Virus record (IMG/VR): IMGVR_UViG_3300025655_000002
Location: 1 to 64,000 of that record
Length of the DNA stretch: 64,000 nucleotides
Strand: one strand, 5' to 3'
Source: a virus
Part shown: in pieces, positions 1,923 to 63,363 of the stretch
Layout of the letters: the number at the start of each line of letters is the position of its first letter
How positions within the stretch are numbered: the stretch's first letter is position 1
Notes under the pieces: model-generated
Told to the model about the DNA's origin: nothing
Databases searched by the model: none
What the model saw: only the letters and a program-made list of their open reading frames with translations
Made by a program: the position numbers and the translations under genes

Positions 1923-3830
1923 ATGAATAAACATACAGTAACAATATATAAGGACGTTTTTTCTAAAGAGCCAAGGTATATTTCTGTTGATTCGGCATTG
2001 AAAAGAATACAAGAAGGAAGAAGTAAAGAACAAATAGAAAAAATAAGAAGTGAGGTTGATAAGGAAAGGGCAGACAAACTAAAATGCAGACTCCCTTCCG
2101 TATGTTTCTCTGGTGTATTCAAAATAAGGAAGGATGAAGAACTTATAGAGCACTCTGGCTTTATTGTATTGGACTTTGATAATGTAGAAGACCCTGAATC
2201 ATACAAAGCCGAACTGTCAGATTTAGACTACATGTATGCCGCATGGATAAGCCCTTCAGGTAACGGGGTGAAAGGGCTTGTGAAAATAGCTAACGGAGAC
2301 AAGCATAGGGAGCACTTTCAAGCACTGCAAGAGGAATTTAACAACCTTGATACTTCTGGTATAAATGAGTCTAGAGTTTGCTACGAGTCTTATGATAGTG
2401 ACATCTATATAAACGATAAGGCTAAACCATTTAAAAAGGTTAAAAAAACAGAAAGGGTTGAAGTTCAAGAATCATTATCTGATAAATATCAAATATTTGA
2501 AAACATCAAGAAGTGGCTAGCCAACCAAGGTTCTGCGTTTGTTAAAGGCGAAAGAAACATATTTATGTTTAAGCTAGCGTCAGCATGTTGCAGGTTTGGA
2601 TTAACTGATGATGAATGCATAAATTTAGCCTCAGCCAGCTTTACGGACTCGACTTTTTCTTTTCAGGAAATGGTTAGGACTGTAAATTCAGCATATAGAG
2701 CTAACTCTGATTCATTTAATACAGCTGAGTTTACAAGAGATAAGCTGGTAGACAAAACAACAAGGAATGAGATTGAGACCAAAGACATAGACCCAGATAT
2801 TTACAAAATAGATGTAAAACCTAAAGATGTTGTTTTTGGAGAGGATGTAAAAGGAGCAGCAATAGATATCCTTACAAAAGGGTATGCGAAGGTCGATGGA
2901 ATTGGTGTAGCTGAATTAGACTACCATTTTAAAATGAAAAGAGGGGAAGCTACAGCTTTGACTGGTTACGGAAACTACGGTAAATCAACCTTTGAAAAGT
3001 GGATGCTCTTAATGAGGATACTTAAATTTGGAGATAAGTTTGCGTTCTTTTCTCCAGAAGATAATCCAGCAGAAGAGTTTTATCATGACTTTGTTGAAAT
3101 ATATCTTGGGAAACAATGTACTCCAGACAATCCTAATAGACCATCTGAAGAAGAATATAAAGAAGCTTATGACTTTATATCAGACCATGTGTTCTACATT
3201 TATCCAGAGACAGTTTCTCCAACTCCAGAATACATAAAAGAAAGGTTTTTAGAGCTCATAATAAAAGAAAATGTTGACGGATGTATCATAGACCCGTTCA
3301 ATCAGCTAACAAACGATTACAGCTCTTCTGGTGGACGTTCAGACAAATACCTAGAAGTGCTACTATCTGACTTCAGCAGGTTTGCACAATCGAATAATAT
3401 TTTCTTTACAATTATAGCTCATCCAAAATCACCGTTAAGAATAAAAGAAGGAGAGAATTACCCTTGTCCAGATGTTTATGATATTGCTGACGGAGCTATG
3501 TGGAACAATAAAATGGATAATATATTAGTTTATCATAGGCCTTTTGCTCAAGCAGACCCTCAAAACTCATCATGCGAATTTCACTCTAAAAAGATAAGAA
3601 GACAAAAGGTAGTCGGAAAGAAAGGGTATGTGTCATTTACAATGAATTTTGCTAAAAGAAGATATTTTTTTGGGGGAAGAGATTATATGGAGGAACTCAT
3701 AACTGGAAAACAATATGTTCCAGAAGTTGTGATTCCAGAAGGGTATAATGTTAATCAAACATTTGAATCAGTAAGAAATGAAGACGATTGGATTCAAGAT
3801 GAAATAGTATTTGACAACCCAGGTTTATAA
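1923..3830 (+). CDS. Primase-helicase (VirE_N/AEP-like plus RecA-fold helicase)
   Basis: Replicative primase-helicase of 635 residues. The N-terminal part (about 55-170) resembles the VirE N-terminal/BT4734-like primase fold, with the metal-binding pattern hhhDFD at residues 81-86 (GFIVLDFDN), followed by a SPSGNGVKGLVK segment typical of this family. Residues 180-300 look like a helical linker. The C-terminal half is an SF4 (DnaB/Twinkle-like) ATPase: a Walker A-like GYGNYGKST at about 349-357, Walker B with a hydrophobic strand ending IIDPFNQL at about 453-460, and a FTIIAHPK sensor segment. The same polypeptide would therefore make primers and unwind DNA. The last 13 or so codons are duplicated downstream at 4174. 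The 9-mer at 1992 is in frame as Ser-Ala-Leu. Confidence 0.85.
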   Translation: MNKHTVTIYKDVFSKEPRYISVDSALKRIQEGRSKEQIEKIRSEVDKERADKLKCRLPSVCFSGVFKIRKDEELIEHSGFIVLDFDNVEDPESYKAELSDLDYMYAAWISPSGNGVKGLVKIANGDKHREHFQALQEEFNNLDTSGINESRVCYESYDSDIYINDKAKPFKKVKKTERVEVQESLSDKYQIFENIKKWLANQGSAFVKGERNIFMFKLASACCRFGLTDDECINLASASFTDSTFSFQEMVRTVNSAYRANSDSFNTAEFTRDKLVDKTTRNEIETKDIDPDIYKIDVKPKDVVFGEDVKGAAIDILTKGYAKVDGIGVAELDYHFKMKRGEATALTGYGNYGKSTFEKWMLLMRILKFGDKFAFFSPEDNPAEEFYHDFVEIYLGKQCTPDNPNRPSEEEYKEAYDFISDHVFYIYPETVSPTPEYIKERFLELIIKENVDGCIIDPFNQLTNDYSSSGGRSDKYLEVLLSDFSRFAQSNNIFFTIIAHPKSPLRIKEGENYPCPDVYDIADGAMWNNKMDNILVYHRPFAQADPQNSSCEFHSKKIRRQKVVGKKGYVSFTMNFAKRRYFFGGRDYMEELITGKQYVPEVVIPEGYNVNQTFESVRNEDDWIQDEIVFDNPGL

Positions 3831-5185: not shown

Positions 5186-5836
5186 ATGGCTAGAGGAAAG
5201 CAAGAAAGCAACGTAATATTCTTTAAGGTTGCATACGAAAACAATGATAAAGACGCTGGGAAACCATTCTTCGCAGAACAAGTTAAGAAAGGTGATTCAT
5301 GGGTAGATTCTGGAGACGATACGTTTCTTGAAGGTCGAGTAATCGGCATTGAAAAAGGAAGCTACGAGTACAAGAAAGGGAAGAAAACATTAACTCAAAA
5401 CACATTTAAATTAAAATTAGATGGTGGAGGCGAGACCTATGTTATAGGATTTAATTATAATTATTATTCAAGAAACATTCTTAATACAATTGCAGCTATT
5501 GATGATTTAGGTTCAGCTGTAGTAAAGATGTCTGTTTACAGAAATAAGGATGGATTTGTCAGCATTTACACTACCGTAAATGGAGAAAAGACAGATTGGG
5601 CTATTGATGCTAAGAAACTTCCGTCTAACGAGGACGATAAATGGGAGGCTTCTTTTGACCATTTTATAGACACTATTTCAGCAAACATTCCTGCTAAAGT
5701 TGACGGCTTAGGAGGCTCTTTCGATGACGCTGTAGATAGTGTGGCTGCTGAAATGAGAGCTCACACTGAGGCTGCTAATAGAAGAGCTTCAAAAGATGAC
5801 GTTGTTGTTGATGACCCTCAAGATTTGCCTTTTTAA
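5186..5836 (+). CDS. ssb: Single-stranded DNA-binding protein
   Basis: Protein of 216 residues. About residues 8-135 are beta-rich and fit an OB-fold core. The C-terminus is acidic and ends DDPQDLPF, the classic SSB tail (acidic residues then P-F) that recruits replication and repair proteins; an alanine/arginine-rich linker precedes it. The gene has its own promoter-like element and is followed by a hairpin terminator, as expected for a protein needed in large amounts. The 9-mer at 5343 is read Ile-Gly-Ile here, not Ser-Ala-Leu. It is longer than cellular SSB, as common for phage versions; assignment rests mainly on the tail and the neighbourhood. Confidence 0.75.
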   Translation: MARGKQESNVIFFKVAYENNDKDAGKPFFAEQVKKGDSWVDSGDDTFLEGRVIGIEKGSYEYKKGKKTLTQNTFKLKLDGGGETYVIGFNYNYYSRNILNTIAAIDDLGSAVVKMSVYRNKDGFVSIYTTVNGEKTDWAIDAKKLPSNEDDKWEASFDHFIDTISANIPAKVDGLGGSFDDAVDSVAAEMRAHTEAANRRASKDDVVVDDPQDLPF

Positions 5837-5863
5837 AAAGGTAGAATTAAATTTTACCTTTTT
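5835..5863 (+). terminator. Hairpin terminator after ssb
   Basis: Nine-base perfect stem AAAAAGGTA (5835-5843) with TACCTTTTT (5855-5863) and an 11-base loop, ending in a T run immediately after the ssb stop. Its A/T flanks make it potentially bidirectional. Confidence 0.7.
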
Positions 5864-5875
5864 AAACATTTTAAC

Positions 5876-5883
5876 TATCTTTG
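5876..5883 (+). promoter_or_regulatory. -7 promoter element (TATCTTTG)
   Basis: Exact TAnnTTTG match 25 bases before the ATG at 5909 and just after the ssb terminator, so it likely restarts transcription for the recombination genes. Confidence 0.6.
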
Positions 5884-5908
5884 TTGTGAAAATCATAATT
5901 AATTTATA

Positions 5909-6451
5909 ATGGAAGCAACAAAGATTTGTTTTAAATGTAAAAAAGAAAAACTACTATCCGAATACTACAAGCATAAGAAGATGTCAGATGGTCATCTAAA
6001 CAAGTGTAAGGATTGTGCAAGGGTGGATGTGCGTAAAAGAGAGGAAAATCTAAAAAAAGACTCAGAATGGGTTGAAAATGAAAAAGCTAGACACAGAGAT
6101 AAGTACTATAGATTAAGATATAAAGAAAAGCATAAACCTACTCCTGAGCAGAAAAAAAAGAGCATGGATAGGTATAGAAATAAATATCCTGAAAAGTATA
6201 AAGCTAAAAATGTTACTCAAAGATTTCCAAGAAAGGAAGGGTGTGAGCTCCATCATTGGAGTTATAATAAGGAGCATTATTCATGCGTTATAGAACTAAC
6301 AACAGAAGACCATTATACGGCTCACAGATTTATGATTTATGACCAAGAAAGAATGATGTATAGAAGGTGTGATAACGGAGAGTTATTAGATACAAGGGAG
6401 AAGCATTATGCTTTTATATCCGCAAGAATATTAGAGGAACAACAAAAATGA
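5909..6451 (+). CDS. Putative zinc-finger HNH-like nuclease
   Basis: Protein of 180 residues. The N-terminus has a CxxC...CxxC zinc finger (Cys7, Cys10, Cys33, Cys36; SDGHLNKCKDC), a module often found at the front of phage HNH proteins. The middle is a very basic helix. The C-terminal third has GCELHHWSYNKEHY and a later EDHYTAHRFM, an HNH-like pattern of His-His, Asn and His without the standard spacing. It is probably a DNA-binding nuclease, possibly a homing gene inserted between ssb and the annealase. The following gene overlaps it by four bases (ATGA). Confidence 0.5.
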   Translation: MEATKICFKCKKEKLLSEYYKHKKMSDGHLNKCKDCARVDVRKREENLKKDSEWVENEKARHRDKYYRLRYKEKHKPTPEQKKKSMDRYRNKYPEKYKAKNVTQRFPRKEGCELHHWSYNKEHYSCVIELTTEDHYTAHRFMIYDQERMMYRRCDNGELLDTREKHYAFISARILEEQQK

Positions 6452-8276: not shown

Positions 8277-9449
8277 ATGGGTAAATCAACAAGGATGACC
8301 AAGAAAGAGGCTGAATACCTCGGTCTTGAGCCTAAAAACCATAACCAATATAATCTAGGTGAAAAAAATCTCAGGAAACTTTACAAATACAGAGGATATG
8401 ACGATGAGCTTATTGAGAGCTGTATAGAAAGAGGTATAAATCCTAATAATGTCGGGCAATATTGGTATAAGTCTAAGCATATTTCCATAAATGTTAAAAA
8501 AGACTTAGAGAATACAAAGGAACAGATTTTAGATAAGTTTGAGCAATTAATTAGCGATATTAAATTCAAACCTATAAAGCTAAAGCCTACAAAAGGTAAT
8601 AGTAAGGCCTGTAAGATAACTATAAGCGACTCTCATGTAGGAATGAACCCAAGCCCTGATAAATCTCCACTATTTAAATACGAGTACAACAGTGAGATAT
8701 ATGGAGAATCCCTAAATAAAGTCTATGAATCAGTTATAAAAGAGTACAATATTCATGGAGCATTTGATATTTTATTCTTGGATGACCTTGGAGATTTAGC
8801 TGACGGATGGAATGGGTATACGACCAGGGGAGGACATAAGCTTCCTCAAAACATGACAAATGCAGATGTATTTGAGGTTTGCGTAGACGCTAAAGTAAGA
8901 TTAATAAGAAATCTAGTGGAGAGTAGAGTTGCAAACAAAATCATTCTTAGATGTGTGACAAATGATAATCATAGCGGTGATTTTTCCTTGTTAATTAATA
9001 AAGCGATAGAGAAAATAATAAATCTAATATACGACAAATCACTCGTTAAAGTAGATATACTTACTAAATTTATAGACCACAGGGTTTATGGAAACCATTG
9101 CTTTATACTTACTCATGGTAAAGATAAGTCTCAAATGAAGTTTGGGCTACCAATTGTTTTAAATGATAAAGCTATAAGGCTTATAAATGATTATATAGAC
9201 CATTACGACATAGATAGCAAGTATATACATGTTGAAAAAGGAGATTTACATCAAATAGGATATCAAAGAACAAAGAAATTTGACTACAGGAATTTCATGA
9301 GCTTTGCCCCTCCTAGTAGCTGGATACAGCATAATTTTGGAGATAGTTATTCTGGATATTCTATTCAAATAATACCTAAAGATAGCAATGAAATTAGTCA
9401 TACGGACTACTTCCTTGATTACAAGAAAATTAGCGATAGGAATTTTTAA
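8277..9449 (+). CDS. Calcineurin-like metallophosphoesterase (recombination nuclease-like)
   Basis: Protein of 390 residues. The N-terminal 100 residues are helical and basic, possibly DNA-binding. The two-metal phosphoesterase motifs follow in order: ISDSHVG (Asp118, His120), LDDLGDLADGWNG at about 165-180 (the GD..D position), VTNDNHSGD (Asn-His) and FILTHGKDK near 280. This matches Mre11/SbcD-like and phage DNA-repair phosphoesterases. It sits directly after annealase and exonuclease, so a role in processing DNA ends or recombination intermediates is likely. No SbcC-like ATPase partner is seen in the window. Confidence 0.78.
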   Translation: MGKSTRMTKKEAEYLGLEPKNHNQYNLGEKNLRKLYKYRGYDDELIESCIERGINPNNVGQYWYKSKHISINVKKDLENTKEQILDKFEQLISDIKFKPIKLKPTKGNSKACKITISDSHVGMNPSPDKSPLFKYEYNSEIYGESLNKVYESVIKEYNIHGAFDILFLDDLGDLADGWNGYTTRGGHKLPQNMTNADVFEVCVDAKVRLIRNLVESRVANKIILRCVTNDNHSGDFSLLINKAIEKIINLIYDKSLVKVDILTKFIDHRVYGNHCFILTHGKDKSQMKFGLPIVLNDKAIRLINDYIDHYDIDSKYIHVEKGDLHQIGYQRTKKFDYRNFMSFAPPSSWIQHNFGDSYSGYSIQIIPKDSNEISHTDYFLDYKKISDRNF

Positions 9450-10623: not shown

Positions 10624-10814
10624 AAAAATATCTGCTAGAAGATAAACAGTAGGTGGATGTGGATGCTGACTTAGTTGAAGCGTGTTGAAGCCTATAAATC
10701 ACTCCAACGATTGTTGTTTATTAGATAGTGCTTATTACGTAGAAGCGACATACAGAAAACGGCAAAGGTATGTAACGTGCCGAAGAGTATCCGATGGAAA
10801 GGACAGATATTTTT
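10624..10814 (+). ncRNA. Structured RNA / long 5-prime leader with pseudoknot, class unknown
   Basis: A 191-base noncoding element closed by an 11-base perfect stem, AAAAATATCTG (10624-10634) with CAGATATTTTT (10804-10814). Inside, ATAAACA (10642-10648) pairs with TGTTTAT (10715-10721). Near the 3-prime end two stems interleave as an H-type pseudoknot: ACATAC (10748-10753) with GTATGT (10768-10773), and CGGCA (10760-10764) with TGCCG (10778-10782). Its base composition is visibly less AT-rich than the flanks. It could be a riboswitch-like leader for the downstream gene and groL, or an independent RNA ended by the U run at 10809-10815. I could not match it to a known class. Confidence 0.65.
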
Positions 10815-10833
10815 TAAATTTAAATTAAATTAA

Positions 10834-11253
10834 ATGAAAATAGGAGAAGTAGATGTTGAAGAAATCAACTTTCTAAGAGACCAAATAAATGTTCACTTCG
10901 GTGGATTGTACTGTTTTTACAGAACCTCAAACATAACAATGCATTACAGGCATCTTGTTAAATTCTTTGACGAGCTGCAGGTTAATCAAGAGTTTTATGA
11001 GAAGATAAAAGAAACCTTTTATGCATGCAAAAAAGAAAGGAAAATCAAATACATACTTGACAGAGATAGAGAGTCTATAAGAAAATGCTTAAGAATGAAT
11101 TTTGATAAGTATTCTCACTTCTGCGACAAGCACAAGTCTTTCAACAACAACTACATTACAAATGTAATTAAAGGAAGGCTTAAGTTGGCTTCAAAAAAAT
11201 ACGAGAAATTAGTATTATTATTAGTTAGAAAATATAACCTAGAATTAAATTAA
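10834..11253 (+). CDS. Hypothetical basic protein before groL
   Basis: Encodes 139 residues, helical and lysine-rich, with several cysteines. The last 45 residues (FNNNYITNVIKGRLKLASKKYEKLVLLLVRKYN) resemble a helix-turn-helix end and could bind nucleic acid. It begins 20 bases after the structured RNA and six bases before groL, so the three probably form one transcription unit. Function unknown. Confidence 0.65.
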   Translation: MKIGEVDVEEINFLRDQINVHFGGLYCFYRTSNITMHYRHLVKFFDELQVNQEFYEKIKETFYACKKERKIKYILDRDRESIRKCLRMNFDKYSHFCDKHKSFNNNYITNVIKGRLKLASKKYEKLVLLLVRKYNLELN

Positions 11254-11259
11254 AATAAA

Positions 11260-12846
11260 ATGAAAGAAATTAAACTTGAAGAAGATGCTATAAGCACTCA
11301 ATTAAAAGGTATTAACACTGCGGTTGACTTGGTTAAAATATCGATGGGAGCAAGAGGAAGATTAGTTAATATAGACCACGCAGGCGGTATTCATTCTACT
11401 TATGATGGGTTTACTATATTGGCTCATACGGCAATGAAAGACAAATGCGAGGACATGGGGGTAAAGATTGTCCTTGAGGCTGCATCTAAACAAGTAAAGG
11501 ATTGTGGAGACGGAACAACATCTGTGTCTGTATTGCTTCAAGCAATAATAAATGAAGGAGTTAAAATGCTGAAGTATGATGCTGATAGGATAAAAGTTAT
11601 TGAAGGAATAAACTTAGCGTCAAAAGAAGCTATTAAAATTATAAAAGAATTGGCTAAGCCAGTAAGCAGAGATTCTCATGAGATAGAGCAAATAGCAAAG
11701 GTGTCTGCCCATGGAGACGAGGATATAGCTAAACTGATAGCTGAGGCAATATCTATAACAAACCATAACTCCATAATTAGGGTTGAAGAGTCTAAAGGGA
11801 ATACCAGTTATGTTGACTTAGCAAAAGGAATGAAGGTTGGTTCTGGTTGGTTATCTGGTCTATTTGTCAACAATGGCTCTAAAGGAACTGTAGAGTATGA
11901 TAACCCATTAATCCTTGTGTATGAGGGTAAGATTGAAAGGATGGCTCAGTTGCAGAACTTATTAGAAAAATGTGTTAATGCTAAAAAGCCTATCGTAATA
12001 GTTTCAGATGATATGGATGGAGAAGTCTTAGCATCTTTAGCTTTAAACGCTAAAAAAGGCCTTCCATTTGCAGCTATTAATCCTTTCGGAGAAACAAGAG
12101 AGGACAGAAAAGAAAGATTAGCTGATTTAGCAGCTTATGTTGGAGGGGAATTAATCTCTCCAGACTTAGGGCATAAGCTTGAAAATATAGATTTAAATCA
12201 ACTAGGAACTTGTGATAGGGTTATTATAGCTAAAAACAACTCTATATTTCAGGACGGAGCAGGGCTTGATACTGAAATTCTTAATGAAAGAATATCTAAT
12301 TTAGAATCGTTGGTAAAAATAACAGACCATACTGTTACTAAAACCTTCTACGAGGCTAGATTAGCGGCATTAAACGGAGGTGTTGCTACTATATACGTTG
12401 GAGGTATAGTTAGTACTGATGTGGTTGAAAGAAAAGACAGAATAGATGACGCTGTTGGTTCGGCATTGTCTGCTCTTGAAGAGGGAGTTGTTCCAGGAGG
12501 AGGAGTATCTCTATTACATATATCAGAAGAACTACGTAAATTATCAAGTGATGATAGTGATGTTAATATAGGTATAAGTATATTTAAGAAAGCTGTCACA
12601 ATGCCGATTCGACAAATTTTAACAAACGCAGGAGAATCTGTTGATTTTATAATAGATAAAATTAAAAACAAAAAGTCGAAGAGCTATGGATACAATGTTC
12701 ATACCAAAGAATATGTAGACATGATTAAAGAAGGTATATTAGACCCAGCTAAAGTAGAAATAAAAATAATAGAAAACGCAACAATAACTGCTACAAACTT
12801 CTTAAATACAGGTGGATTGATAGCTGTTGTTCCTGAAAATAATTAA
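11260..12846 (+). CDS. groL: Phage GroEL-like chaperonin
   Basis: Group I chaperonin subunit of 528 residues, close to the 545-550 of bacterial GroEL. ATP-site features are in place: TYDGFTI with Asp49 (Asp52 in E. coli), GDGTTS at 83-88, a DDA segment equivalent to Asp398, and EEGVVPGGG near 407-415. The apical region is present but diverged, and the C-terminal GGM repeat tail is missing (ends VVPENN). No groES is adjacent, unlike cellular groESL operons; a GroES-like multidomain gene is encoded at 51309-52373 beside head genes. Likely role: folding of capsid or other virion proteins. It carries the 9-mer at 12460 in frame (Ser-Ala-Leu) and reversed at 12599. Confidence 0.92.
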   Translation: MKEIKLEEDAISTQLKGINTAVDLVKISMGARGRLVNIDHAGGIHSTYDGFTILAHTAMKDKCEDMGVKIVLEAASKQVKDCGDGTTSVSVLLQAIINEGVKMLKYDADRIKVIEGINLASKEAIKIIKELAKPVSRDSHEIEQIAKVSAHGDEDIAKLIAEAISITNHNSIIRVEESKGNTSYVDLAKGMKVGSGWLSGLFVNNGSKGTVEYDNPLILVYEGKIERMAQLQNLLEKCVNAKKPIVIVSDDMDGEVLASLALNAKKGLPFAAINPFGETREDRKERLADLAAYVGGELISPDLGHKLENIDLNQLGTCDRVIIAKNNSIFQDGAGLDTEILNERISNLESLVKITDHTVTKTFYEARLAALNGGVATIYVGGIVSTDVVERKDRIDDAVGSALSALEEGVVPGGGVSLLHISEELRKLSSDDSDVNIGISIFKKAVTMPIRQILTNAGESVDFIIDKIKNKKSKSYGYNVHTKEYVDMIKEGILDPAKVEIKIIENATITATNFLNTGGLIAVVPENN

Positions 12847-51308: not shown

Positions 51309-52373
51309 TTATAGCACAACATAAACATTTTTGATATCCATTAGCATGCATTCTTTTTCTTCTATATCAACATGTGTTGCTGTGCCCTTTCTGAATAATA
51401 TTTCATCGCCTTCCTTCAAAGAGGATATGCCTTCAGGTACTGATATGACCTTACCTTTCTCTGGGTATGCTTCTTCTTTTGTTGAAACGACTATCTGACC
51501 ATGTGTCATAGCTTTTCTTATTGGTTCGACAACAATTGTAGTTCCTAATGCTTTCATTTTATCTAAATTATAAATTATATCTTTTGTGTTTATTCTGTAA
51601 TAAGTGTGAATACCTATTGTTATTTCGTATTCTCTTCCAGTTTTAAATAAAACCTTGTCACCAGGATAAAGTCCTGACTTCCTGTTTGGGTGTTGAACTA
51701 TCGCTGTTCTAGCTTCCTTTTTGGCCATCACCTCTAACATTATTCCGTTGTCAGTTTTCGCTATATCTTTATCTATAGCTGTAACAAGGTTCCATTCATT
51801 AAGCATCTCTATTTCATTGTCAGAAATCTTACAATAAAGGTCTTCGTACTTTATCTCATAATAGGTTTTATCACCAATGACTCTCTCGTTATCCTCATGT
51901 GTTAAAAAATGATGAGTATAAACAACGTCTCCAGGCTTAACTTCAACATCTATCTCATTACCGTAATAACTATTAAAGGCTTTAAAACAGGCGGAATACA
52001 CAACGCCATCTTGAGTTATGTTGTCTTTATCCATCGGGTTATACCTAGTGTCTATATGTATTCCGTTCCTTACTGATTTCTTATCTTTATCAGCATTAAC
52101 ATAGACCATGCTTGCTGACGGATGTATAACCCCATCTCTTATAACTCCTCTTATTTCTTCCTCGTATATGTAATACGAATCATCACTAAAGTTTGGAGCT
52201 TTATCAAAAAAGGAATTGTCAGCCATAAAAACCTCATCTCCTTTCACATACACAGAGTTCGGACTAGACTCTATAATTATAGCTCTTTGATATTCGTATA
52301 TGGAGCCGATGTCCATTGAAAGTTCTGATGGCTCTGCTCTTTTAGCTATACAGTAACCCTCTTGAACTGTCAT
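51309..52373 (-). CDS. Tandem GroES-like (Cpn10-fold) protein, 3-4 domains
   Basis: Protein of 354 residues that reads as repeated co-chaperonin modules. The C-terminal one (about 270-354) is clearest: TTIVVEPI, a loop with IVV, GKVISVPEG, LKEGDEILFRKG, then a final strand ending VYVVL, in the order of GroES (RVIVKR, mobile loop IVL, GEVLAVG, VKVGDIVIFNDG, ILAIV). Residues 184-269 repeat it (NLVTAIDK, DNGIMLE, ARTAIVQHP, LYPGDKVLFKTG, YYRINTKDIIY), 85-183 more loosely (VYVNADK, NGIHID, DGVVYSA, VKPGDVVYTHH, YYEIKYEDLY), and 1-80 weakly. E. coli GroES has 97 residues and one domain. It sits among head genes and probably partners the phage GroEL. Confidence 0.7.
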   Translation of the reverse strand: MTVQEGYCIAKRAEPSELSMDIGSIYEYQRAIIIESSPNSVYVKGDEVFMADNSFFDKAPNFSDDSYYIYEEEIRGVIRDGVIHPSASMVYVNADKDKKSVRNGIHIDTRYNPMDKDNITQDGVVYSACFKAFNSYYGNEIDVEVKPGDVVYTHHFLTHEDNERVIGDKTYYEIKYEDLYCKISDNEIEMLNEWNLVTAIDKDIAKTDNGIMLEVMAKKEARTAIVQHPNRKSGLYPGDKVLFKTGREYEITIGIHTYYRINTKDIIYNLDKMKALGTTIVVEPIRKAMTHGQIVVSTKEEAYPEKGKVISVPEGISSLKEGDEILFRKGTATHVDIEEKECMLMDIKNVYVVL

Positions 52374-53699: not shown

Positions 53700-53921
53700 T
53701 TAAATATTCTTATCTATTAACACAAATTTTTTCCCAAGGACTTCAGCTATTCTTTCTAGAGAGTCTATAGACATGCTTTTATTCTCGTCTTTTATCCATC
53801 TAAGTAGAGATGTATACCCAACACCTGATTCTTTAGCCACTTCTTTATAGGTCATTTTCAATTCACCTTTAAGTTTTTTCTTCAGGTTTAATTCCCCTAT
53901 TATTTGTTTTTTTATGCTCAT
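53700..53921 (-). CDS. XRE-family HTH regulator
   Basis: Protein of 73 residues: a basic N-terminus, then MTYKEVAKESGVGYTSLLRWIKDENKSMSIDSLERIAEVLGKKFVLID, a classic Cro/C1 helix-turn-helix with recognition helix YTSLLRWIKDE. It sits at the end of a leftward unit facing the divergent control region. Its upstream sequence is a close relative of the right-arm leader element, on the minus strand: TCGGTACTG at 53940-53948 is a one-base variant of the 9-mer, and ATTTAAA plus CAATG follow in the same order. Confidence 0.8.
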   Translation of the reverse strand: MSIKKQIIGELNLKKKLKGELKMTYKEVAKESGVGYTSLLRWIKDENKSMSIDSLERIAEVLGKKFVLIDKNI

Positions 53922-54769: not shown

Positions 54770-55006
54770 CTAATAATCGCTAAATCCACCAATCGGCTTA
54801 CTGTCAAATCCTGTTTTATCATCTTCATCTTTCCAATGTTGATGTAAATTAAATTCGTAATCATCTACTTTTGATGTCTGTTCAAATATTTGGTTGCAAG
54901 TACTGTTGCTAACACCCAATAAACCCAATAAAATAGTTCGTGCTTTCGTTTCAGTAATTGTGCCTTGTTTAAGGTCTTCTGCTATTTTGATAATTTTGTC
55001 TTTCAT
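54770..55006 (-). CDS. Hypothetical protein, first gene of the leftward unit
   Basis: Protein of 78 residues: helical N-terminus with IAEDLKQGTITETKARTILLGLLGV (a pattern seen in small Bacteroidota phage proteins), then a polar C-terminus. First gene after the leftward promoter at 55089-55120. Confidence 0.6.
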   Translation of the reverse strand: MKDKIIKIAEDLKQGTITETKARTILLGLLGVSNSTCNQIFEQTSKVDDYEFNLHQHWKDEDDKTGFDSKPIGGFSDY

Positions 55007-55088
55007 AATCTTTTACTGCGTTTATTTGTAGCCGTTAATTTTGTATTAAAAATCACATATATACCTCTCGGCTCGATTAATAATATCA

Positions 55089-55120
55089 CAAATGTACCAC
55101 TTTTAGTTTGATTAATGCAA
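55089..55120 (-). promoter_or_regulatory. Leftward promoter: TTG (55118-55120), 21-base spacer, TACATTTG (55089-55096)
   Basis: Both boxes of the Bacteroidota consensus at the right distance, 83 bases before the start at 55006. It should drive the leftward regulatory genes. Confidence 0.75.
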
Positions 55121-55217
55121 GCTTTTTTGTAATTATTTTATAGCTTCGTCATGCATTAAGTGTGTAACCCTTGTGTTTTAAAGGGTTTTTAATCAGAAAA
55201 AAATTTCAAAAATTTTT

Positions 55218-55248
55218 GGGAGTGGGGTTATGGTGGGTGTGTCGGGGG
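55218..55248 (+). other. G-quadruplex-capable G-rich run
   Basis: Four G runs: GGG (55218-55220), GGGG (55224-55227), GGG (55235-55237) and GGGGG (55244-55248), with loops of 3, 7 and 6 bases. This fits the standard G4 pattern and stands out in an otherwise AT-rich genome. Located between the leftward promoter and the repeat region. Confidence 0.6.
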
Positions 55249-55325
55249 TGCAATCTCGAAGGGAAAACGGTTCTCAACATACCAGTGGGGTAAATTCTTG
55301 CAAGCCTAATATTTTCAAGCGTTTT

Positions 55326-55341
55326 GTCTATGTTCTATTTA
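55326..55341 (+). repeat. 16-bp inverted repeat, left arm
   Basis: GTCTATGTTCTATTTA is an exact reverse complement of the sequence at 55857-55872, 515 bases away. The pair brackets the AT-rich centre of the divergent region. Confidence 0.8.
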
Positions 55342-55368
55342 TGATACAAAATGAAACTAACTATCTTT

Positions 55369-55967
55369 AAATCACTGGTTATCAGCTCGTTAATGTATTG
55401 ATTGATAACAAATATAGTTGAAATTTGCCAAAAGAAAAGCTATTTTGCATAGTTGGAGCGTTTAACGTTTGTGTTGCGTGTAGTTTTTATATAAAATATG
55501 CGCTTATTTGTTTGTGGTAGCCTTTCTCCCGATATTTCTATGCTCTTTACCTATTGTTTACCCTTGTTGTATTCCTGCTTTGTTCTTTTGTGTTGGTTGT
55601 TATGTTAGTATGTTATTGTTTATTGTTTCTCTTATGGTATTTAGTCTTTTGCCTATATCATACAATGCCGAACAGCCGAATATATTTACACGTATTTTTA
55701 CACCTAAAATAAGCTAGTTAAAACCTCTATTTTTTGCTCGATTACCAATAAAAATCACTTTTACAGCGATGAACATAAAAATTATTCTCATTGATACTCA
55801 GATAGTTACATAGTTTTATCGAATTTTTTTACATTTTTTTTATTTTTTCTGCTTCGTAAATAGAACATAGACCACTTAAATAACTAATAGTCAGCACGTT
55901 ATCCTCGCCAAATCAAAGCAAAATGAATCGATGCAAAATCGTTAAGTCACTGAGTATCAGCACATTT
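55369..55967 (+). repeat. Iteron-like repeats in the divergent region
   Basis: Three related direct units: 55369-55393, 55877-55902 and 55943-55967, all of the form TAA(A/G)TCACTG..TATCAGCACGTTA with small changes, plus a fourth copy on the other strand at about 55786-55810. Such a set could be binding sites of a replication initiator or of a repressor. Apart from the inverted repeats and one 9-mer at 55663, I see no gene in this stretch. Confidence 0.5.
55857..55872 (-). repeat. 16-bp inverted repeat, right arm
   Basis: TAAATAGAACATAGAC, exact reverse complement of 55326-55341; it directly abuts the second iteron-like unit. Confidence 0.8.
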
Positions 55968-55993
55968 GTTTTATTTTGTTTGTTGTATCTTTG
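55965..55993 (+). promoter_or_regulatory. Rightward promoter: TTTG (55965-55968), 17-base spacer, TATCTTTG (55986-55993)
   Basis: Both boxes are present, with a spacer two bases shorter than consensus. It lies just upstream of the structured RNA region and overlaps the last iteron-like unit, so an initiator or repressor bound there could control it. Confidence 0.6.
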
Positions 55994-56159
55994 AATTGTC
56001 GAAAGGTTAAAACGTTCTTTACATACTGATAAACTAATAACACATAGAGTAACATATAGCACCTCTTACTTGTTATAGTTCTTAAGATAGACAACATTAG
56101 AAGTAATGGTAAAACAGGCACACTAAGATAGTATTAGAATACAATACCGAACTGACAAA

Positions 56160-56715
56160 TTTAAACGTTCATTGACATACTAGAGTAATTAAGTTAGGAG
56201 CACGCCAAAGGGCAATGCAATGAAGCAACCCAAAAGAGTAAGCCCAACTATGCTGAAAAACGCACCGCCTCAAGCCTTGTATGAAATTGTGGGAGCAAGT
56301 GGAAGGGTAGTAAGTGTAAAGTAGTTGACAAGCTGAACTTGTGTAACCGTTAAAGGCGGTTTTAAAAATGCGATAAATATATAATTACGAAGGGATTGAC
56401 CAACATTGAAGCCTTGTGGGTAAATTTAAGACCCCCACCTAGCGCAATGAAATAGCTAGACTCAATACGATGGTAAAGAGGTCTGTAAACTATGTAACAA
56501 CCGCCAGTATAGTACTGGTCGAGTAGAGCAGATGAGCAATGATGGTCGAAAGTCAAAATAGGTGTGTTTACAACTTCGCACCAGTTAAACACAAAAGTTA
56601 GAGCCTTACTTGGTAGTAAGGGGTTTGAAAGGCTTTATACCGAAACTACCGTTGCCTCTTGATAGAAGAACTATTTTATAGGAGTAATACCTACAAGAGG
56701 AGCTAATCATAAAAA
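56160..56715 (+). ncRNA. Large structured noncoding RNA, class unknown
   Basis: About 550 bases without a credible gene but with many perfect helices: ACCGCCT (56264-56270) with AGGCGGT (56354-56360), ACAAG/CTTGT (56328-56342), GTGGGT with ACCCCCAC (56416-56438), CCAGTA/TACTGG (56504-56518), GTGTTTA/TAAACAC (56564-56592), CCTTACT/AGTAAGG (56604-56621) and CCTCTTG/CAAGAGG (56655-56700). GC content is clearly above the flanks. It may start further upstream near 56000, where a repeat of AACGTTC..T.ACATACT occurs (56011 and 56164). Size is in the range of the large phage RNAs GOLLD and ROOL, but I cannot show that it belongs to either. Confidence 0.7.
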
Positions 56716-56725
56716 AGAATAAGTT

Positions 56726-56827
56726 ATGAGTACTAAAATATTAAGAATAGAAGGTAGTTATGAGATAATTGGCTTCTTTAGAAATGGAGTAAAACTACGT
56801 GAACGTAGAAGAAGAATATTAAATTAA
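56726..56827 (+). CDS. Small basic peptide
   Basis: A 33-residue ORF ending in an arginine-rich stretch (RERRRRILN). Start ATG lies ten bases or so after the structured RNA, and the first leader element with a 9-mer follows directly. Could bind RNA; speculative. Confidence 0.5.
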   Translation: MSTKILRIEGSYEIIGFFRNGVKLRERRRRILN

Positions 56828-56857
56828 TACAATACCGAATCGTAAAATATATTTGTT

Positions 56858-57490
56858 ATGAGAAAACAATATAAATACCCGTTCAGAAATAAAAAACTGA
56901 GCAGAACGCAAGTAAAAAACAATATACTTGCAGTGCTAAAAGAGGCTGACAATGAGAGTTATATTAATGGCTCGATATGGTACGATGTAGCCAATGGAAT
57001 AGCCAAAAAGTTAATCGTAGCCTCTGAAACTGAAATAAACTTGGCTCAAGCTGTAGGGTTAATAGCTGCTTTGAGTCCTTTAAAAAGTTGGGAACAAAAT
57101 ATACAATTGGCTTATGAATTTGTTATTGGTAAAAGAAGTGGGCACACTAAACTTTGTGTTGGTAAAGCAAATGATATACTAGCTTTAAATAACCCAAGTG
57201 TTGATGAGGTGGTAGAAGTTTTGAGCGGGCAAAAAACAGTGAACTTTTTCTTAAACATATACTATCCTAATGAAGATGCAGCAATAACAATAGATAGACA
57301 CGCAGTAGGAATAGCTTTGATAGGTACTAAGAAAATAAAACTAACTGAAGAGGAGTGTAAACCTACTAAGGCACAGTTTGAGTTCTTGGTGCACTGTTAC
57401 AAATGGGCTGCTTCTGAGTTAAGTTTGTCTGCAGTACAGTTACAAGCTATTACTTGGGAGCACTTTAGAAATATAAAAGTAAAAAGATAA
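56858..57490 (+). CDS. DUF7178-like protein, possible DNA-glycosylase-type fold
   Basis: Protein of 210 residues. Conserved-looking blocks: AVGLIAALSPLKSWEQNIQLAYEF, GHTKLCVGKANDIL, VVEVLSGQKTVNFFLNIYYPNEDAAITIDRHAVGIAL, and LQAITWEHFR at the end. This pattern belongs to a phage family of unknown function; its helical order and the TIDRHA block are reminiscent of HhH-type DNA glycosylases, but I cannot show catalytic residues. The first 50 or so residues are duplicated in the broken copy at 58112. It carries a leader element at 56830. Confidence 0.6.
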   Translation: MRKQYKYPFRNKKLSRTQVKNNILAVLKEADNESYINGSIWYDVANGIAKKLIVASETEINLAQAVGLIAALSPLKSWEQNIQLAYEFVIGKRSGHTKLCVGKANDILALNNPSVDEVVEVLSGQKTVNFFLNIYYPNEDAAITIDRHAVGIALIGTKKIKLTEEECKPTKAQFEFLVHCYKWAASELSLSAVQLQAITWEHFRNIKVKR

Positions 57491-57527
57491 TACAATACCG
57501 AACCGTAAAATTTAAACACTAGAAATT

Positions 57528-57752
57528 ATGAGTAGATTTAAAATAAAAACAACATCAAGTGGTAGATGTGATGTAACACTAACGATATTTAATGAACATG
57601 GCACTGTCATTGGGCAAAAGGCATCTACATACGATATTAAACCGACTATTAAAGAATTATTAGACTATGCTAAAACATACAAAAAGGATGGTGCTAAAAC
57701 AGTTAGAATAACAACCACACCAAGCTTCAGTGTAAAAACATATAGATTATAA
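57528..57752 (+). CDS. Hypothetical protein
   Basis: Protein of 74 residues, basic, with two strands then a helix (PTIKELLDYAKTYKKDGAKTVRITTT). Leader element at 57493 with AAATTTAAAC and AGAAATT before the ATG. Unknown function. Confidence 0.55.
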   Translation: MSRFKIKTTSSGRCDVTLTIFNEHGTVIGQKASTYDIKPTIKELLDYAKTYKKDGAKTVRITTTPSFSVKTYRL

Positions 57753-58111: not shown

Positions 58112-58297
58112 ATGAAGACTTATAAATACCCATTCAGAAATAAAAAACTGAGTAGAACGCAAGTAAAAAACAATATACTTGCAGTACTAAAAGAGGCTGA
58201 TAATGATAGCTTTATTTTTGGGCAACAATGGTACACAGAAGCTAATAATATAGCTAAAAAGTTGAAAGTTAATACAATACCGAATAGTCAAATTTAA
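58112..58297 (+). pseudogene. Truncated copy of the 56858 gene
   Basis: The first 50 or so codons are nearly identical to 56858 onwards (YKYPFRNKKLSRTQVKNNIL, AVLKEADN), then identity fades over ten codons and the frame runs into a leader element (9-mer at 58275) and stops. About 150 residues of the full protein are absent. The junction falls directly in front of the element, as if recombination had joined the two there. The short product may still be made. Confidence 0.75.
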
Positions 58298-62631: not shown

Positions 62632-63363
62632 ATGAAAAAGACAGTTAAAGTAGTTATGCTACCTACAAAAAAAGCAAGTTTATGTAAAGATAGTTCGGGA
62701 AAGTTATTTTATTACCCTAAAGATAATTGGTTTTCAAAGGATTTTGAAACTGACCCTCAATACCTATACTTTGTATCTGATGAAAAGATTAAAGAAGGAG
62801 ATTGGTATTATTGTTCTTCCGCAAATTGCATATTTAAAAATGAAGGAGACAATAAATTAGCTTGGATTATTGATGAGAAAAAAGTAATAGCCACGTCAGA
62901 TAAGTCTTTGAGTGAGAAAACTTGTGATAGATGTGATGGAAATGGTAGGTATATAGAAAAAGTACTTTCAACTAGACCTCAACGAATAATGAGTGGCTAT
63001 ACATATTGCTCTAAATGCTCTGAAAGAGGTGTCTTAAATAACCTACCACAAATCCCAGAATCATTCATTAAAGCTTATGTAGAAGCTAATGGAGAGATAG
63101 ATGAGGTTATGGTGGAGTATGATAATCCAAGTCCTTGGACAGAAAAAGAAATTAAAGATTGGAATATTAAAGCTAAATTAGAACTCAAAACAACAGTATC
63201 CAATGAGGTTATTATTTCTTTACCTGAAGAGAAGATGTATAATAAAGATGAAATAACTGACATTGTATTCAATTCTATGAGCAATATTTTGGATGAGGTT
63301 AGTAAAGAGTATCATGGGGATTTATATGAATACGCTGTTAATTATGTAAAAGGAAACTTATGA
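62632..63363 (+). CDS. Protein with DnaJ-type zinc-binding motif
   Basis: Protein of 243 residues. It has a CDRCDGNGRY...YCSKCSERG pair at about 103-130, i.e. CxxCxGxG followed by a second CxxC, the DnaJ-type zinc knuckle. The N-terminal part is beta-like (VKVVMLPTKKASLCKD), the C-terminal half helical. DnaJ J-domain (HPD) is absent. Function unknown; protein or nucleic acid binding likely. Confidence 0.6.
   Translation: MKKTVKVVMLPTKKASLCKDSSGKLFYYPKDNWFSKDFETDPQYLYFVSDEKIKEGDWYYCSSANCIFKNEGDNKLAWIIDEKKVIATSDKSLSEKTCDRCDGNGRYIEKVLSTRPQRIMSGYTYCSKCSERGVLNNLPQIPESFIKAYVEANGEIDEVMVEYDNPSPWTEKEIKDWNIKAKLELKTTVSNEVIISLPEEKMYNKDEITDIVFNSMSNILDEVSKEYHGDLYEYAVNYVKGNL

Follow-up and report, generated by a model that had tools for sequence, protein, structure and literature searches.

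What is the stretch at 56000-56725 of this viral genome, a noncoding interval that a first-pass annotation read as a large structured RNA of a size similar to GOLLD and ROOL? The window, i.e. the whole stretch of DNA that was analyzed, covers bases 1 to 64,000 of a viral record 69,507 bases long. We conclude, from its sequence, that 56000-56725 is most likely the 5' part, boxA-led and untranslated, of the early transcript of the right arm. Whether it would also be an RNA in its own right is considered below.

Genomic setting of the divergent region

The terminase of the window was 28-29% identical to the terminases of Maribacter, Flavobacterium and Cellulophaga phages, by which the virus is classed as a phage of Bacteroidota, its host group being probably the Flavobacteriia. 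Leftward structural genes extend from 55 kb down to 14 kb; rightward early genes begin at 56.7 kb and again at position 118. The stretch sits in the divergent region, immediately 5' of the rightward genes, and is flanked by the following features.

55089-55120, minus strand: promoter-like site of the left arm, TTG ... TACATTTG, found by pattern
56726-56827, plus strand: 33-aa ORF, first possible product 3' of the candidate RNA, codon score -0.03
56858-57490, plus strand: earliest clear early gene, DUF7178 / phrog_3842, assigned by family matches

No family match was found for the 33-aa ORF. When we examined 54900-57600 for terminators, the sole terminator-like site detected was on the minus strand, and none was found between the noncoding stretch and the early genes.

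Several other elements were noted in the same genome. A truncated second DUF7178 N-terminus (58112-58297, plus strand; 81% over 52 aa) represents a partial gene duplication. The gene at 51309-52373 (minus strand) encodes a 354-aa protein with three Cpn10 (GroES) stretches, unusually long for a phage co-chaperonin, and a GroEL-like gene was present at 11260-12846. The divergent region also holds a G-rich tract, GGGAGTGGGG...GGGTGTGTCGGGGG, at 55218-55300, which is perhaps a quadruplex or an origin element; similar G-rich tracts were seen in the control regions of viral locus L135 and its kin. Just past the window, at ~64010-64140 of the record (L118:2010-2140), we observed a short unit with a promoter-like site (TATATTTG) and a strong terminator-like 3' end (AAAGCCGT...ACGGCTATTTTTTTTT), a possible small RNA.

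The stretch is noncoding and has two unlike parts

The absence of a coding frame in 56000-56725, reported by the first-pass annotation, was borne out by stop counts, codon log-likelihood and a six-frame comparison with PHROG, all of which agreed. The three forward frames of 56190-56720 contained 13, 19 and 12 stops against a random expectation of ~12.5, and the codon log-likelihood was at or below 0.14 in all windows of 56000-56720, while that of the downstream genes was mostly 0.2-0.4. The six frames, with stops read as X, gave no convincing match to PHROG. A frameshifted protein gene was ruled out, since there was neither a family match nor a codon signal in any frame. The elevated GC was likewise confirmed: GC was 0.404 in 56190-56720 as compared to a genome mean of 0.337 (sd 0.032), a value reached by 1.6% of equal-sized genome windows. 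This divided the stretch into an AT-rich and a GC-raised part.

55994-56189, plus strand: AT-rich unstructured leader, GC 0.30, fold z +1.83 (worse than shuffles), no 7-bp stem
56190-56720, plus strand: GC-raised noncoding core, candidate structured RNA, from stops, codon score, GC and fold tests
56220-56324, plus strand: possible but weak 34-aa micro-ORF inside the core, codon score 0.06 vs 0.24-0.28 in the neighboring genes

A promoter and two boxA-like elements open the stretch

The first-pass annotation had placed a promoter ahead of the stretch, and direct reading together with a pattern search located one of the Bacteroidota -33/-7 type. This promoter and two imperfect copies of boxA open the untranslated stretch.

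55965-55993, plus strand: Bacteroidota-type promoter, TTTG at 55965-55968, N17, TATCTTTG at 55986-55993, from direct reading and pattern
56014-56025, plus strand: boxA-like element 1, GTTCTTTACATA, 20 nt past the promoter, from pattern
56167-56179, plus strand: boxA-like element 2, GTTCATTGACATA, about 150 nt past element 1, from pattern and repeat search

Resemblances of the promoter region to other phages reached E-values of 0.08-1 only: 55980-56021 resembled upstream regions of Polaribacter phage P12002L/S (82%), and 55980-56006 resembled Bacteroides phage BK687P2 (93%), in which a gene starts 28 nt past the match. boxA is the NusB-S10 site of rRNA operons, and GTTCTTTACATA and GTTCATTGACATA are presumably near-copies of it. 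Each copy deviates once from the perfect element: the first lacks the G of TTCTTTGACATA, and the second has CATT for CTTT. The two share a 21-nt direct repeat (71%, 154 nt apart). The pattern GTTCWTTN{0,1}ACATA, which was written post hoc, had two occurrences in the window, where 0.16 were expected; each lies in the leader and in the sense orientation. The 5' end of the Rfam DUF2693 RNA aligned at element 2 at chance level.

In the antitermination leaders of lambda (nut) and of rRNA operons, boxA lies near the start of an untranslated transcript that precedes early genes or rRNA. The window resembles them in having a boxA-like element near the start of a putative untranslated transcript, ahead of early genes. 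On the other hand, lambda nut also has a boxB hairpin and a phage N-like protein, neither of which was identified for the window.

Helices and fold energy of the stretch are at or near the level of shuffles

The first-pass annotation had counted at least seven perfect helices. At least seven do exist (we found nine of at least 7 bp), but they do not exceed chance: 100 dinucleotide shuffles gave 6.2 +/- 2.4 such helices and 17 of the 100 reached the observed number, and a repeat of the test gave p 0.21. The following pairings were recorded.

56264-56360, plus strand: perfect helix ACCGCCT (56264-56270) / AGGCGGT (56354-56360), from helix scan
56398-56547, plus strand: long-range helix GACCA-A-CATTG (56398-56408) / CAATG-A-TGGTC (56537-56547), 10 bp with one A-A mismatch, from direct reading
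56563-56593, plus strand: hairpin TGTGTTTA (56563-56570) / TAAACACA (56586-56593), from helix scan
56604-56621, plus strand: hairpin CCTTACT / AGTAAGG, from helix scan
56655-56700, plus strand: 3' closing stem CCTCTTG (56655-56661) / CAAGAGG (56694-56700), from helix scan, with fold z -3.19 for 56640-56759

Several helices in the core are mutually exclusive. Pairing of GGCGGTT (56355-56361) with AACCGCC (56499-56505), shifted by one, excludes the helix 56264-56270/56354-56360, and the hairpin at 56604-56621 competes with AGCCTT (56602-56607) / AAGGCT (56629-56634). The minimum free energy of the stretch was mildly low in separate runs (z -1.15, -1.12 and -1.62); the only low window was the 3' one at 56640-56759, which was the best of many.

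As positive controls for the fold and helix tests we used GOLLD, two tmRNAs and a group I intron, all from phages. GOLLD gave z -2.28 with a stem p of 0.20, the two tmRNAs gave z -2.0 and -2.1 with stem p of 0.47-0.97, and the intron gave z -5.0; none of the controls had a significant excess of helices. These tests have little power. Since known structured RNAs showed no helix excess, the helix count carries no weight for structure, nor does its failure argue against one. "Large structured RNA" is accordingly used here as a hypothesis.

These results bear on the rather unlikely reading that the stretch is just a long 5' leader, in which a nut-like cis element of the boxA type would keep the polymerase processive, with no separate RNA and no specific fold in the core. 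Two sense boxA-like repeats directly behind a promoter, the lack of a terminator before the early genes, an unstructured first 190 nt and an unremarkable core energy are all as such a leader would have them, but it leaves the raised GC of the core unexplained. An antitermination leader requires ~100 nt. The stretch, at some 700 bases, is much longer than that, and its core is well above its neighbors in GC; for these two reasons we consider an orphan noncoding RNA somewhat likelier than this plain leader.

Searches for relatives

The search for homologues in other Bacteroidota phages proposed by the first-pass annotation found no relative of the stretch. Blastn against 50,697 phage records gave nothing beyond promoter-sized or chance matches; no relative was recovered from IMG/VR by an exact 21-mer, from 88 related viral records searched as DNA (5 + 40 + 44, one counted twice), from viral loci by nhmmer, or from 792 bacterial genomes (397 of Flavobacteriaceae and 395 of Bacteroidota). 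One match at E 5e-4, in the huge phage LR756502, was judged to be chance, as it had no noncoding counterpart around it. Related viruses were reached through the MCP, terminase, GroES, DUF7178, the helicase and one early protein. The close ones, with head and packaging proteins 100%, 74%, 65% and 55% identical, were fragments without a match to the stretch, and the others were too distant. Contigs 3300034374_004736, 3300037190_000188 and 3300025853_001331 are relatives with a terminase or MCP 55-74% identical. The absence of homologues is a gap in the data and not evidence of absence.

Noncoding gaps elsewhere were also considered and set aside. Those in the helicase relatives (L125-L140) were long AT-rich control regions, unlike the core; the apparent gaps in G002 and G006 were open-ended genes; and the gap in G015 was, by eye, a tRNA array. 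A terminase relative (G034) carries a phage-borne tmRNA with the tag ANTNSVKAEELGSFTFDDALALMGVETAELV (L085:13376-13741, minus strand).

Alternatively, the stretch could be a remnant, consisting of decayed genes or of neutral spacer between the divergent arms, maybe with the micro-ORF at 56220-56324, and transcribed without function. The failure of every search to find a homologue, the chance-level helix count, the weak 34-aa frame and two short repeats that hint at duplication would fit this. We nevertheless doubt it, since phage genomes seldom retain 500 bases of spacer, neutral spacer should drift to a GC near 0.30 like its neighbors while the core is at 0.40, and no frame matches a family.

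Comparison with known RNA families

GOLLD and ROOL are large phage noncoding RNAs of several hundred bases and of unknown function, and the stretch is of similar size. A homo-oligomeric RNA nanocage is a mark of ROOL. One ROOL example measures 659 nt and GOLLD is often >800 nt, closeness to tRNA islands is typical of GOLLD, and a ROOL profile is present in Rfam (PMC12286853). The check with Rfam covariance models that the first-pass annotation proposed did not support kinship with these RNAs. The whole window gave no Rfam match at gathering scores, and the 56000-56725 region, searched at E <= 10 with permissive filters, gave only three chance matches (E 4-10). GOLLD (RF02032, gathering 150 bits) was found neither at gathering in the window nor at E <= 10 in the region, although the same library detected GOLLD in locus L230 at 296 bits, as well as tmRNA, permuted tmRNA, tRNA and a group I intron in other viral loci. 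The ROOL model, for which no positive control was encountered, had no match in the window or region. ARAGORN, run on the window and on record positions 62001-69507 (L118), identified neither a tRNA nor a tmRNA, so that the tRNA island typical of GOLLD was missing from both. In lacking a covariance match, a tRNA island and demonstrable pseudoknots or a demonstrable conserved core, the stretch differs from GOLLD and ROOL. We also rejected a tmRNA, a permuted tmRNA and a tRNA array (no covariance or ARAGORN match) and a group I or group II intron and RNase P RNA (no Rfam match).

It is very improbable that the stretch is a highly divergent GOLLD, ROOL, tmRNA, permuted tmRNA, group I/II intron or RNase P RNA missed by the models: its size and boxA leader resemble the stable RNAs of related phages, but there was no gathering match, the three chance matches had E 4-10, ARAGORN found no tRNA or tmRNA, and the positive controls were detected by the same models.

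Promoter-boxA pairs precede tRNA operons in other viral loci

We scanned viral contigs with the pattern TATCTTTG-N8-38-TTCTTTGACATA, which identified 43 viral loci. In 18 of the 43, a tRNA starts 11-142 nt 3' of boxA. In a further locus, L239, an Rfam group I intron match (3187-3375) lies 69 nt 3' of boxA, and L239:3118-3450 reads as a boxA directly 5' of a tRNA gene split by the intron. Together with L239, the 18 tRNA loci amount to nine distinct leaders, some present in several near-identical copies. The promoter TATCTTTG with boxA TTCTTTGACATA opens large tRNA arrays in L207, L208, L210, L211, L215, L230, L234, L240 and L244, and viruses among the boxA-tRNA loci also hold tmRNA, permuted tmRNA or GOLLD. 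Stable RNA is not all that follows the pair: in L205, L220, L228 and L241 it was followed by a protein-size ORF, the next ORF lying within 35-85 nt. A boxA-led noncoding stretch in L236 was rejected as a further orphan RNA because it holds the 3' end of a tmRNA along with a weak tRNA.

The window shares with these boxA-led tRNA operons of Bacteroidota phages the TATCTTTG promoter, a boxA-like element within 8-38 nt of it and, as a putative transcript, an untranslated GC-raised RNA downstream. Unlike theirs, its boxA copies are imperfect and are not followed by a tRNA. The promoter TATCTTTG followed by TTCTTTGACATA offers a sequence handle for listing stable-RNA operons and candidate RNAs in Bacteroidota phages, usable in phage genomes in which fold energy by itself does not suffice.

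Parallel stretches in Panino and L201

Two distant relatives of the phage have a long noncoding, hairpin-rich stretch in the corresponding place. In Maribacter phage Panino (PP540027, L119) it spans 464-1290, 5' of the DUF7178 gene, and is annotated as several tiny doubtful hypothetical genes of 30-50 aa; it is possibly a misannotated noncoding RNA. In L201 (IMG/VR contig 3300025853_000481) it spans 5836-6370, 5' of a gene whose protein is homologous to the one encoded at 62632 in the window. The helices of at least 9 bp in Panino and the weighted stem score in L201 were each at a level reached by 0 of 100 shuffles. Like the stretch in the window, both are placed 5' of early genes, are 500-800 nt long, and finish with a closing stem, after which come an A-rich stretch and then ATG. 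Unlike it, they showed no boxA. Alignment of the three stretches revealed no similarity above shuffles, and Rfam gave nothing above chance for Panino and L201. The likeness is a parallel of position and not a demonstrated family. Other relatives, Flavobacterium phage elemoA among them, had no comparable long gap in the annotated part of their early region. L201 has further noncoding stretches in its early region, at 8426-8896 and 10715-11772, both with a fold z of -3.4 on the plus strand.

A proposed early untranslated RNA ahead of the right arm

The proposal of an early RNA thus survives in part: the stretch is noncoding, GC-raised, behind a promoter and before the right-arm genes, while kinship to GOLLD and ROOL was not supported. 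Our tentative preference, to which we give somewhat less than an even chance, is that it would be an orphan noncoding RNA doubling as the leader of the right arm. The lack of coding, a GC of 0.40 vs 0.34, the sense promoter with boxA-like elements, the link of such pairs to tRNA elsewhere, the lack of a plus-strand terminator and the parallels in Panino and L201 argue for an orphan RNA. Against it stand the near-chance helices and energy, the lack of a homologue and hence of covariation, the imperfect boxA, the ORFs behind some promoter-boxA pairs, the absence of a tRNA from the scanned parts of the record and the lack of sequence shared with Panino and L201.

If the orphan RNA is as we propose, host RNA polymerase would start near 56000 from the TTTG/TATCTTTG promoter, and the nascent RNA would expose one boxA-like element at once and the second ~150 nt later. 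If these elements act like those of rRNA and tRNA operons, NusB-S10 could bind them and let the polymerase traverse ~700 untranslated bases without being stopped by Rho. The GC-raised core (56190-56720) might then fold as RNA and be either processed or read through, because there is no terminator between it and the early genes. Such an RNA, if real, would join the few giant phage-borne RNAs without known function as another orphan. A bolder and improbable extension is a novel class of large phage RNA that is boxA-led, acts in trans and has no sequence kinship to GOLLD and ROOL; it would occupy the earliest slot among the early genes of Flavobacteria-type phages and turn over fast in sequence, the window, Panino and L201 holding lineage-specific versions.

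A dispersed motif in the genome

The window has 43 copies of the 9-mer CAATRCCGA, where 0.30 would be expected, and no 9-mer of the record was more over-represented than CAATGCCGA (336-fold). Copies found by motif scan include the following.

56142, 56830, 57493, 58275, 58611, 58844, 60523 and 63366, plus strand: CAATRCCGA copies
56142-56151, plus strand: the first of these copies, CAATRCCGA(A), within the leader

Copies in the early region take an extended form, ATACAATACCGAAYNGNNAAATTTAAA, and lie 19-29 nt 5' of start codons in the sense orientation; outside that region, copies occur inside genes on either strand. The genome also encodes a small HTH protein (53700-53921) and has an integrase-like gene at 728-1297, and the combination of these two with CAATRCCGA recalls the stoperators of cluster A mycobacteriophages. 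Another reading of the motif is a phage-wide operator or a partition site.
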